NCBI GenBank assembly: GCA_029204225.1
Contig: CM055101.1
Span: 33,857,683-33,921,682 of the forward strand
DNA from: Diphasiastrum complanatum
Lineage: Eukaryota > Streptophyta > Lycopodiopsida > Lycopodiales > Lycopodiaceae
Direction: 5' to 3'
DNA: 64,000 nt
Shown here: positions 1,118 to 62,756 of the stretch, one piece after another
Position numbering within the stretch: the first letter of the stretch is position 1
Layout: every line of letters begins with the position of its first letter
Position numbers and translations under genes: made by a program
Notes under the pieces: generated by a model
Told to the model about the DNA's origin: nothing
Seen by the model: only the letters and a program-made list of their open reading frames with translations
The model's database searches: none

Positions 1118-1500
1118 TTAAACTCCAATGTAGCCTGCTTTGGGCATAATATCTTTGGGCATAATGGTGAATGCTTTGCATGGATGGCAAGCAGGAAGGA
1201 ATCCTCAAAAAATTGAGCTTGAAAATCTTCATAGGCTTCTTGAAGGAACATAACAACTGAAACTTTAAAACGATTGTACCTACCTAGATTCTCTCTGGTG
1301 ATTTCACATACCAAACGATAGAATGGAGCCTTTGGAATCATAAGCTCCATTGACCTTTGACACTTTTTTATCTCTCTCATCCAATGGCTTCTTCTCATCG
1401 ATGTTCTCCTACCAGTATCGTGCAGCCTGATGCTCGAAACTTCACCTTGAACTGGTTTGGGATGATGATCAGTTCTGGATGTTTGCTTCACTCTAGCCAT
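1118..1500 (-). pseudogene. Histone H3-like gene A (CENH3-leaning), frameshifted
   Basis: The protein starts MARVKQTSRT, close to the H3 start MARTKQTARK, with a tail of about 40 residues. The histone fold follows: REIKKCQRSMELMIPKAPF (alpha-N), then RLVCEIT (alpha-1), LQEAYEDF (alpha-2), and FFEDSFLLAIHAKH. One base is missing after AIHAKH. In the other frame the end reads IMPKDIMPKAGYIGV then a stop at 1118-1120, with MPKDI partly duplicated. Length is about 126 residues against 136 for canonical H3. Features leaning to centromeric H3 are IPKAPF instead of IRKLPF and a loop 1 about one residue longer than H3. It is very divergent and probably no longer functional. It lies upstream of a C48 fragment and diverges from gene A. 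Confidence 0.8.
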
Positions 1501-2226
1501 AAACAGGATCTAACAAAGGCTCAAAAAGATGTTGATTAAGCTAAAAAAATTAAAGTGTATGAAATGGATATTGGACTTATGCGCAAATAAGAAATAGGTA
1601 CCTTATGGGCGTCTACAGGTGCGCACTAATCAGATATGTGAAAACTAAAAAAAGAAAGTGTCACGATTGGGTTCAATGAAATTTATATACATAACATGTT
1701 ATCCCACATGTGTGGAGTCAAACTTGAAATCCACGTATTGAATTTTCATTTGGTAAATGCATGGACAAGTGGCATCATATTATTCCTTGACCTCTAACAC
1801 GTTAGTGACCATCATCATTAGGATTTTAACACGTGTCAGGAACTGAGTGAACTGTCAACTAATAGGCACATGCCACGTGTTCAGATATTGAATATGTGTA
1901 TACGCTTTTATTTCATGCCTCTCATTGTGCCAAAATGTGCACTCAACCGATATGAGTATGTATTTATGTAAACCATTGTTCAAAAATATAGTTCAATAAA
2001 ATCATTGTTAAAAAAGAAACTATAAATATGAGACACCTTTCTCATTTTCACAACTCTAGTTTTGCTTTATGTGAATTAGTTGTTTTTCTTACCAATTCTA
2101 GACCACCGTTTTACTAGGTTTACTATTCCACATCATCACGGAGAATGCTAGGACTGAGGTTTCAAGACTTTTATGTGGTACAGAGTTTGAACATTAGAGG
2201 TTTCAAGACTTCTATGTGGTACATAG
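1501..2226 (+). promoter_or_regulatory. Divergent intergenic region between H3-like A and gene A
   Basis: No coding frame is supported here. On the plus strand a TATAAATA box lies at 2021-2028. CACGTG/ACACGTGT-type palindromes occur near 1835 and 1873. H3-like B and gene B share this design (ACACGTGT, then TATAAATA at 32740-32747), so the region may be a bidirectional promoter. Inferred from motifs only. Confidence 0.4.
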
Positions 2227-2237
2227 TTTGAACATCA
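2156..2237 (+). repeat. Tandem duplication, 41-bp unit x2
   Basis: Two nearly identical 41-base units beginning GAGGTTTCAAGACTT lie head to tail just before gene A. They differ at about three positions. Confidence 0.9.
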
Positions 2238-2682
2238 GATAGATAGGATCTTTCCCATCTTCTGTGCCACAATAGATACACTAGCTACGGCTAGAGCTAA
2301 CGCAGAAAGTGTGTCATTTGCCATGGATTATATGAGTACAACACTTTTTCCGTATAGTATAAGAGCTTATGATTCAGATATTGCATGGATTCCATACAAC
2401 TTACTAACGTACATATGGAAGGGTGATAGACCATTTGTAGCTAGACTCAATAGATTTTTGAATAATTTGTCTAGAAATCACTATAGAATTTTAACTGTTG
2501 AGGAGCAGCGTAGGGACAATTTGTTGAACATAGGTTCAAAGATCATTTCATGTGAGATGGTCTTTGTATTCTTGCTTTCTGAACATACAACTGTTCCAAT
2601 GCCCGTTGACTCACAGGAGGCCATTCTATGTTATGAAATGAACGAGGTTGAGGAGGAGCAACCAATAAATGAAGAAGAATAA
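2227..2682 (+). CDS. Gene A: unknown protein, acidic C-terminus
   Basis: An open frame runs from just after a TAG at 2224 to a TAA at 2680-2682. The first ATG is at 2323 (119 codons), but the open frame upstream (IFPIFCATIDTLATARAN) suggests the real start or an exon edge lies earlier. Visible features are a hydrophobic/aromatic stretch (SDIAWIPYNLLTYIWKGDRP), a basic helix-like part (RLNRFLNNLSRNHYRIL) and an acidic end (NEVEEEQPINEEE). No known domain is recognised. It is divergent to H3-like A behind a TATAAATA box, so it may be a real gene of the same locus. Confidence 0.4.
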   Translation, partial: FEHQIDRIFPIFCATIDTLATARANAESVSFAMDYMSTTLFPYSIRAYDSDIAWIPYNLLTYIWKGDRPFVARLNRFLNNLSRNHYRILTVEEQRRDNLLNIGSKIISCEMVFVFLLSEHTTVPMPVDSQEAILCYEMNEVEEEQPINEEE

Positions 2683-3358
2683 AGAGCACTCTCCTTGCAG
2701 CAATTCTTTGAGTTATCTCCATAAACCAGTGAGGCAAATGAGATAGTGTTGCAAATTAGGAGCCTCTCTCCAATTATCATCAATGGTAGAGAGTACATGT
2801 TTTTTTTTTTCATTATCTACAATATATTCTCCATCTGCTAGAGGAAGAACTCCAAAGTGCTCTAATGAAATTGCAGAATTACCTACAATCACACAAGGAT
2901 TGATGATACATTCCAAAAGTTGTGTCCAAAAAATGAGGATGCCACATGAGAAATGGCATTGGCAAGAATCTTGACAGAGCTCCGAAACGTCGACTCCTCT
3001 CCTGAGGTGACTCGCCATGAGGCACGAGAGTACAATTTCACTCAACTAGAGGGGAAATAAGGAAGCATTAACCTGAGTGACACTACAGAAGCTGATGAGG
3101 GGACACATGACGCCATTGAAATCAATGCTTATGCATCTAGAGCAAAGGGAGTGAGAAAAGCCAGAGAGAGTGACTCCAAGGATGCTTCTTGGCGCACTAC
3201 ATTGGACACTTTCCGGAGCAGTACATCTATTGCACTAGCAAAAAGTATAGTCCTAATGGAGATGAAGAGCTGCTAAAGTGCAAATCATTGTCCAAACATA
3301 TTGCACAAGTGGAACTAGCAAAAGGTTATAATAACGCAGTTGTTAATGATCTAAGCTC
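2683..3358 (+). other. Possible downstream exons of gene A
   Basis: Short open stretches without a single continuous frame. The last, from 3189, reads AHYIGHFPEQYIYCTSKKY and runs into a gypsy LTR fragment at 3359. It could be the broken 3' part of gene A. Otherwise nothing recognised. Confidence 0.25.
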
Positions 3359-60966: not shown

Positions 60967-61535
60967 ATTATGAACTATGAAATTTTGTATTATGTAATAC
61001 AATTTTTTGTATACATCATTTTTGAAAATATATGAACCACTTTTTCTATGAGGCTCTCTCATTTCTATGATCTCCATTTCCATGGTGCAAAACACAATGT
61101 AATTGCAACTGGATAATATGAGTTTTTGATAACAAGAGTACTTTTGGTCTTCATTGCCTTGGTCTATATCCTTGTCTTGGCATATTTGGATATGTTCAAA
61201 AAATGAACTAATGAAAGCTTTGCTGCAACAAATCTAAGTTTGTCGCATGTTTGGATTGGTTGTGGCAAAGGTTCCATCAGATCATCTTTCTGAACTTATC
61301 CAAAAAAAAAAATCATGGTAAAGGCAAGGCAGACTTAGGCTATGAAAAACAAAATTGTCAAAAAACTATAGAAATTGAGATGAATGAATCATAAGCTAAA
61401 TTAATAACAGGAAAAAAAACAAGTAAGAACAACCATAGAAAACTGTAAATATATTTCTATTAAAATTTTCTGTACATTTGTCTCATCCACATCAAGTGAG
61501 ACGAATATTTAATCAGTACCAACTATCTATGATCT

Positions 61536-62303
61536 CTAAATCCATTTCTCCAGTTGAAGTAGCTTGGGTGGAGAACACTCGGCCACTACAACTGGATATG
61601 AATTTTCAATCACAAGCTTTATGGTCTCCTGCCTGAAGTGCATTATCTTCATTGGGGAGACCTTCAGACATTTAAACTGAAAAAAAACATAAACACAGTT
61701 AAATGTAATTAATCAAAGATCGGATAATAGGAATTTTTATATGAAAAAAAAACACAATTAAAAGTAATTAATCGAAGATTACCTCTTCCAGAATTGGAAG
61801 TCCATCTTGTAATGCAAGCCAACTAAAAAAGTGTTTGGCATTGCATACGGTATACCAACCACAACTGACAGAATCAACCTGTTGGGAGGACTGCAGAATC
61901 CAAATTTTAACAATATGAGATATCGGATCAACGCGCAGGATGTTAGAATAAAATCTACAACAGAAACAAGCGCGCGTCGAATTGATATCAAAAAAATATT
62001 GATTGAATATTGGATCAGCGCACACGTTGTGAAAATAAACCAATCAATAACTGCAAGGGCGCGTCGAGCCGATATTGCAAAATTTATACCTCTGCATCAA
62101 CCATTTTCAGTTTTGAATATGCTTTTGCATTTGGTATTGGAAAGAATTTCAGTATTTTCTGGATATGGAACCTGGCAATTTTGTGTGTGTGTGTGTGTGT
62201 GTGTGTGTGTGTGTGTGTAATAGAGTTCATCTTTAAACAAACTGGATTACACACACCCTCATCATTGATGTACAAGGACAATACATATAAGCTCCAATGA
62301 TCA
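61536..62303 (-). CDS. C48 (Ulp1/SENP-type) cysteine peptidase gene, at least four exons
   Basis: Proposed minus-strand exons: 62303-62240 with SDHWSLYVLSLYINDE (catalytic His in HW), 62171-62090 (FHIQKILKFFPIPNAKAYSK), 61890-61783 with QQVDSVSCGWYTVCNAKHF (oxyanion Gln and catalytic Cys) and 61676-61536 ending KLLQLEKWI and a stop. Splice sites fit GT-AG. C48 peptidases remove SUMO or ubiquitin-like proteins and are often carried by plant Mutator- and CACTA-type transposons. The Asp of the triad was not located with confidence. A (GT)n repeat lies in the first intron. It starts only about 40 bases after H3-like gene C on the same strand, so the two might even be one transcript. Confidence 0.65.
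61905..62080. repeat. Inverted GATATCGG..CGCGC motifs in the C48 intron
   Basis: GATATCGGATCAACGCGC near 61919, GCGCGTCGAATTGATATC near 61972, TTGGATCAGCGCAC near 62012 and GCGCGTCGAGCCGATATT near 62060. Two orientations alternate. The same motif family occurs near 62772, 63366, 63535 and 63580 and in the Copia-A leader (10968-11213). Confidence 0.75.
62182..62218 (+). repeat. (GT)n microsatellite
   Basis: GT repeat of 37 bases, likely within an intron of the C48 gene (HTHTHT in the minus frame). Confidence 0.97.
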
Positions 62304-62345
62304 CTGCAATCAGAAAACAATAAATTTATGAGAATCAATGTGAAA

Positions 62346-62756
62346 TCAAAATTCATATGAAAAATTCAATATAATAAAGTCTGCATATGTGTCCCAAAGC
62401 CTGAAAACAATGTAAAAATCCTTGGGCATGATGGTCACCCTCTTGGCATGGACAGCTACAACAACAGTATCTGAAAAAAATTTCATCTGGAAATCCTCAT
62501 ATGCTGTGTGTAGCGCCTCAATTGCCGTTACAGTCCATCTCACATCTGCAGATAGACTTCTTGTAACGTCTCTGCACTGTATGTGAGATTTCAAAATCAG
62601 AAGATTATTTGTCTTCTGAAGCTTCCGAATATCCTTGAGCCAGGGTGGGTCTCTTCTTCTGCCCCTTGGCCTAGGAGGTGGTGGTTGTGGATTTCCCTGA
62701 CCCGCACCTGAAATTGGTATTTCACCTTAATGACCTTGTGTTGTCTGCTGGTCCAT
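62346..62756 (-). pseudogene. Histone H3-like gene C (CENH3-like)
   Basis: From ATG 62756: MDQQTTQGH, a TAA (62727-62729), then the same frame continues with a P/R-rich tail (NPQPPPPRPRGRRRDPPW) and an intact histone fold: LKDIRKLQKTNNLLI (alpha-N), DVRWTVTAIEALHTAYEDF (alpha-2), FFSDTVVVAVHAKRVTIMP and KDFYIVFRLW (alpha-3). The end extends past H3 to a stop at 62346-62348. The RW in front of alpha-2, FSD instead of FED, and KDF instead of KDI are traits of plant centromeric H3 rather than canonical H3. The tail is shorter than in CENH3. The stop at codon 10 would silence it unless translation starts elsewhere or an upstream exon bypasses it. It is directly upstream of the C48 gene. Confidence 0.85.

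Follow-up and report, generated by a model that had tools for sequence, protein, structure and literature searches.

Three loci with a histone H3-like fold, A, B and C, lie on the minus strand of a 64,000-nucleotide stretch of the Diphasiastrum complanatum genome (contig CM055101.1; G000:C10:33857683-33921682 in our searches), here called the window. They are decayed H3-like genes of a family of large DNA transposons with terminal inverted repeats (TIRs), which we name CATTAG elements and which measure ∼8.7–8.8 kb when complete. From the sequences compared here, an H3 variant is almost certainly a regular gene of this transposon. Our best overall explanation, to which we assign a probability of roughly 0.6, joins this origin of the three loci with a function that we propose for the element's H3. 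At the level of sequence it draws on H3-like genes carried inside elements with matched termini, their high copy number, a transposase with recognizable motifs and a predicted fold, many open H3 frames, and an N-terminal tail that keeps lysine 4 (K4) and lacks lysine 9 (K9).

H3-like genes of the window

The original prediction that all three loci are H3-like is borne out by Pfam and PDB sequence matches. Gene A (type A, 757-1500) has its tail and fold at 1150-1500, within an open reading frame (ORF) of 145 amino acids at 1063-1500 (Pfam Histone, 2.9e-15). Its frame is lost after ...IHAKH, a point past which the expected frame carries on in five of the nine related copies (L068, L070-L073), and pieces of a C-terminal extension, which matches that of the element family F2 described below, reach to 757. 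Gene C (type C, 61771-62756) has its fold at 62349-62726 (7e-17) and extension pieces, also matching F2, down to 61771; a stop lies shortly past a possible start, MDQQTTQGH. The fold of B matches Pfam Histone in two pieces (2.7e-7 and 3.9e-12), and its tail alone gave no match in the Pfam search. A, C and both fold pieces of B exceed the Pfam Histone cut-off of 26.4 bits, with F2 reaching 98.6 bits. In sequence searches of the PDB, the best 60 of 177 matches for A and the best 60 of 180 for C were all H3 or CENP-A type chains.

Locus B was also predicted to be H3-like, which stands, but its two pieces are a single gene cut by a long terminal repeat (LTR) retrotransposon. The first half (32155-32338) holds the start MARSKHMARKKQTAREPQ and tail in translation, and the second (14986-15519) the tail end and the fold, in changing frames. 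Self-comparison of the window identified an LTR pair at 15519-16620 and 31050-32154, 90.3% identical over 1106 aligned columns, and the element that it bounds (15520-32154, plus strand, LTRs at 15520-16620 and 31051-32154, with further elements inside) fills the gap between the two halves. This element has TG...CA ends, TGGTATCAGA directly after the first LTR, and flanks CTTTG and CTTCG, with one mismatch in five. A related B gene on C13 (L015) is uninterrupted; its DNA identity is 83% to the first half from the window and 81% to the second, and the two halves overlap on it by 14 bases. The LTR pair, the element ends and flanks, and the uninterrupted gene rule out a reading of B as two exons around a huge intron. 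Besides this insertion, B has one stop and a frame change, and the window copies of A, B and C are all broken.

Carrier transposons

The original prediction had offered carriage by a mobile element as one of its explanations, and the H3-like genes indeed lie inside TIR DNA transposons that have a transposase gene. We studied the carriers from 20 fetched loci near the top of the genome-wide Pfam Histone list and from the flanks of five of them. Comparisons between loci showed sharp-ended repeat units in unrelated flanks. Family F1 (L013, L031, L032) is 8809 bp long, with CATTAGGGCCCTTTTTGGACTC at one end and the same sequence inverted at the other; family F2 (L029, L035) is 8681 bp long and is bounded in the same way by CATTAGAGGAGTTCTCAATATCAAAAAGACCC. 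Their TIRs are identical over 22 bp and 32 bp, respectively. Besides a transposase gene, each family has a single H3-like gene and two further genes, orf2 and orf3; a Pfam search with the transposase, orf2 and orf3 gave nothing above cut-off. A reading of F1 as a 3.3-kb repeat proved wrong, the ends concerned being peculiar to one locus (L012).

These elements are abundant in the 1,744,706,496 bases searched. The two ends of F1 occur 1002 and 996 times (at most two mismatches) and those of F2 1177 and 1240 times (at most three mismatches), with no occurrence of the reversed control in either case, which amounts to ∼1,000 F1 and ∼1,200 F2 elements if each has both ends. A 197-amino-acid F2 transposase query gave 11,485 first-look candidates, of which the best 150 were scored, all at least 90% identical. 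At least 17 of these 150 places, including the query's own locus, have an H3 place 0.8–3.9 kb downstream on the same strand. These pairs were matched by eye to the listed H3 places and then checked by script, and as each search listed only ∼150 H3 places, 17 is a lower bound.

The transposase is a DDE transposase with a predicted RAG1/Transib-like fold. In A1, the transposase has Asp193, Asp290, C309xxC312 and H349xxxxH354, giving the DDE type with C(2)C and H(3-4)H motifs, and a QGMEKSH motif is present in the F1 and F2 transposases and in the database protein P0012. By sequence, the transposase found no match in the PDB at E values up to 10. No hAT or PIF chain appeared among the best 50 VIA-align matches, which excludes nothing. 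Many relatives of the transposase occur in environmental and other assemblies (P0002-P0048), some ∼45% identical, and viral contigs searched with A and a transposase alignment gave no relative.

Divergent H3 lineages across the genome

The three loci had been taken for a local family of H3 variants, but related copies occur throughout the genome. The Pfam Histone search returned 6325 first-look candidates, and the best 150, which were scored, comprise 13 canonical H3 at ∼164 bits followed mostly by divergent H3-like sequences on many chromosomes, a number of which have open frames of 200–417 amino acids. At least one late-ranked match comes from a host H3.3 exon (L055). Nor do the three window loci all fall within canonical H3 as recent pseudogenes. 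Host H3, read in two copies (L002, L004), has Ala31, Tyr41, Ser87 and Leu90; Phe41 of plant H3.1 is first found in ferns, according to passages of PMC5809374, and the Tyr41 read here points to a lycophyte or bryophyte.

The lineages differ in architecture. In F1 H3, the fold follows a long tail that includes stretches rich in glutamine and in proline (417-amino-acid frame, L012), and F2 H3 has a short tail, the fold and an extension of ∼200 amino acids. There are 33 further places of A-type, 71–82% identical over at least 109 amino acids and 22 of them without a stop, and 149 of C-type among the matches listed, 76–90% identical; a query with the F1 tail gave 431 first-look candidates, of which the best 150 were scored. 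Between lineages the folds are 36–50% identical, and synonymous sites between F1 and F2 are saturated. A tree of 15 folds groups C, A and F2 (86/87) and B with F1 (80/74), with one of its 12 inner branches well supported.

Protein database searches with A found one environmental H3-like protein (P0001, 139 amino acids), which is encoded by a contig of 1.5 kb, shares 40% identity with A and has the altered tail MARVKAPPKKR...; those with C found no relative among 14 candidates. By impression rather than tally, TAG seems the commonest in-frame stop in the listed H3-like copies, and an excess of TAG, as C-to-T change at CAG would give, could reflect CHG methylation.

A tail that keeps K4 and lacks K9

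We tallied the starts of 42 copies: all 13 fetched F1 copies with a start, 17 of F2, 10 of A-type and two of B-type. Seven copies with a start outside the fetched stretch (L040, L041, L044, L046, L047, L049, L051) were omitted, as was C-type, represented by just the broken copy in the window. Position 4 is lysine in 40 of the 42, with methionine and asparagine once each, and position 9 is lysine in none of them, across four lineages. The residue at position 9 is instead aspartate (11) or glycine (2) in F1, aspartate (16) or glycine (1) in F2, threonine in all 10 A-type copies and glutamate in both B-type copies. The tails therefore do not read ARTKQTARKS as in H3, since residues 1–8 are mostly kept and K9 is absent.

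In F2, the ratio of nonsynonymous to synonymous differences (pN/pS) is 0.18 (6 copies) and 0.20 (17 copies) for the fold, 0.16–0.79 for the transposase exons, 0.39–0.74 for orf2 and 0.47–0.75 for orf3. In F1, it is 0.39–0.66 for orf2 and 0.45–0.66 for orf3. An opposite-strand control (0.46) is linked to coding phase and was not used.

Proposed role and alternative explanations

In flowering plants, dimethylation of H3K9 (H3K9me2) and CHG methylation maintain one another, so an H3 without K9 on the element would be expected to weaken silencing. We propose that the element expresses its own H3, that host chaperones would deposit it in nucleosomes at the element or close by, and that such nucleosomes would be unable to receive H3K9 methylation. 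The loop between H3K9 methylation and CHG methylation that silences plant transposons would then be weakened, while K4 would stay available. Retention of ARTKQTAR and replacement of the silencing mark's substrate by aspartate, glutamate, threonine or glycine make such an anti-silencing role a possibility that we put forward tentatively. That the first eight residues persist and the following one is altered in four types agrees with evasion of K9 methylation; a similar picture would result from one ancient loss or from a tail of CENH3 type.

Several results weigh against our explanation. Beyond residue 9 the tails are unlike H3 altogether; with the whole H3 tail gone past that point, the loss is not specific to K9, apart from the preservation of residues 1–8 right up to it. 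The loss of K9 may represent one or a few old events, and CENH3 tails, which in plants start with MARTK, lack K9 as well. In F1 and B, another in-frame ATG precedes this start by a few codons, and ARTK is thus not necessarily at the N terminus in these two. Selection estimates are mixed: pN/pS is 0.39 for the F2 tail and 0.44 for its extension, and in F1 it is 0.44 for the fold, 0.65 for the tail and 0.80–0.93 for the transposase. The pooled A-type value of 0.70 includes frameshifted copies, and the fold copies were picked by histone score, which biases the fold values low. As to the carriers, one transposase/H3 pair lies on opposite strands, 5.3 kb apart. Target duplications of 3 bp were found in two of eight end pairs and of 8 bp in none of the eight, and none was evident by eye in F1, F2 or a miniature element of the window. 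The structural match of the transposase to RAG1 has a root-mean-square deviation of 6.5–10 Å at ∼12% identity, and the model is that of a database relative (mean predicted local distance difference test score, pLDDT, 67.8), whose C-terminal part, including the third acidic residue, is unreliably modelled.

The H3 gene could instead be a passenger, copied from the host and spread unused. Such a capture is described for fungal hAT elements in the parts of PMC6710886 that bear on it; many of the H3 copies here have stops or frameshifts, and the F1 pN/pS is just moderately low. Host H3 is nearly invariant, however, so the transposon H3 is not a recent copy, and an H3-like gene accompanies the same partner genes in F1, F2 and the window elements. 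The fold is moreover still recognizable at the identities seen between lineages despite saturated synonymous sites, and residues 1–8 of the tail are kept in four lineages, all of which makes an unused passenger unlikely. An H3 protein that serves transposition, its fold together with H4 tethering the transposase to nucleosomes or packing the element ends, would account for the constant pairing with transposase, orf2 and orf3 and for long tails that could bind partners; orf2 and orf3, however, have no Pfam match above cut-off, and we regard this role as doubtful.

CENH3 was invoked by the original prediction, which read A, B and C as a possible decayed local CENH3-type cluster. A local cluster is rejected by the genome-wide distribution of copies; RW before α2 occurs in C alone, loop 1 is of H3 length in F1 and B and one residue longer in A and F2, and the ORFs are uninterrupted. 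Of the CENH3-type traits ascribed to both A and C, IPKAPF and KDF are present, but RW is confined to C, the corresponding site reading RF in A, RI in B, RV in F1 and RF in F2. F2 also reads IPRAPF and MPKDF, and F1 IPRAPF; being common to other element families, these are family traits, and residues of the IPKAPF and KDF type occur in plant CENH3 too. A broader version holds that the transposon H3 derives from CENH3 or acts like it, in special or centromeric chromatin, for targeting or drive, with the loss of K9 reflecting a CENH3-type tail. Long variable tails, LIPxAPF, KDF, the single extra loop 1 residue of A and F2, RW and FSD in C, and the MARTK start without K9 in plant CENH3 speak for it. 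Loop 1 is nevertheless of H3 length in F1 and B, RW is missing from A, B, F1 and F2, and tail and fold lie within a single uninterrupted ORF. A small tree, with weak support, does not join the transposon folds to two plant CENH3. Taken together, we find a CENH3 origin or function quite improbable. Host CENH3 itself, sought in the genome, was not identified among the best 150 scored matches, which were filled by canonical H3 and transposon copies.

Other CATTAG features of the window

For annotation, the window was extended by flanks of 4 and 5 kb. Plus-strand remains include orf2 of the element with A, in pieces (2227-3407; 48% identical to F1 orf2 over 124 amino acids), a second orf2 in pieces (32914-34325; protein matches to F2 orf2), and orf3 of the element with C, in pieces (58357-60815; protein matches to F2 and F1 orf3). 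A transposase gene, in pieces, lies on the minus strand (34490-36472; matches to F2 and F1 transposase of up to 68%). In the upstream flank, a CATTAGGG terminus lies at -2146 and the first part of a plus-strand transposase gene occupies -1762 to -484; the downstream flank has an orf2 at 64268-64822 (plus strand). In L015, too, orf2 separates a B-type from an A-type H3, so A and B were probably parts of a single element with two H3 genes, and C part of another element. The two orf2 of the window are of different types (WKGDRPF at 2227-3407 and FFDYRED at 32914-34325), each adjoining a different H3 type, as if orf2 and H3 had been duplicated as a pair.

A 364-bp miniature with both F2-type termini (CATTAGAGGAGTT.../...CCCTAATG) lies at 52799-53162. 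A second LTR pair (48179-49151 and 53961-54971, 86% identical) is ∼70–72% related to the LTRs in gene B. The miniature, with its CATTAG ends, lies between these LTRs and so may have inserted into that retrotransposon.

Comparison with known systems

If our explanation is true, a transposon carries its own histone and has kept it in many copies through long divergence. Whether an altered histone, rather than an enzyme, can free a transposon from H3K9 silencing then becomes testable, and the elements offer a natural collection of H3 tails in which K4 is retained and K9 lost. Transposon genes can also swamp a survey for H3 or CENH3 variants in genomes of this kind, as here, where host CENH3 was not picked out. 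Searches of the open-access literature gave, among the papers listed, no report of H3 genes in plant DNA transposons.

CENH3 (CENP-A) shares with the transposon H3 a divergent fold and a variable tail; the transposon H3 differs in its high copy number, its place inside transposons and the absence of most hallmarks. VANDAL elements encode VANC anti-silencing proteins. Fungal DNA transposons that carry a TET/JBP dioxygenase and HarbingerS elements that carry a SET domain are mentioned in portions of PMC12730594, and like VANC these are transposon genes possibly acting on their own silencing. All of them are enzymes or DNA-binding proteins, whereas the cargo of CATTAG elements is a histone.

By transposase, the elements appear closest to the CMCT group (CACTA/EnSpm, Mirage, Chapaev, Transib) and RAG1, as far as sections of PMC12730594 describe them, sharing a DDE transposase with C(2)C and H(3-4)H, a predicted fold close to RAG1/Transib and inverted termini. 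They differ in their CATTAG termini, in a transposase without a Pfam match above cut-off and in the H3 cargo, and the 2–5 bp target duplication of CMCT elements compares with 3 bp in two of eight CATTAG end pairs.

By analogy, the nearest precedent would be the hAT elements of Pseudocercospora fijiensis and relatives, which according to excerpts of PMC6710886 captured H3, with H3 also amplified in Pyrenophora tritici-repentis. These elements are 9.5–9.9 kb long, carry one or two H3-like sequences and reach hundreds of copies, and they resemble CATTAG elements in placing H3-like sequences on a high-copy DNA transposon. The fungal elements have a hAT transposase and 8-bp duplications, in contrast to the RAG1-like model and the eight end pairs lacking such a duplication here. 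The P. fijiensis copies were inactivated by repeat-induced point mutation after capture of the host gene (PMC6710886, in part), whereas CATTAG elements hold several diverged H3 lineages with remodelled tails and many open frames.

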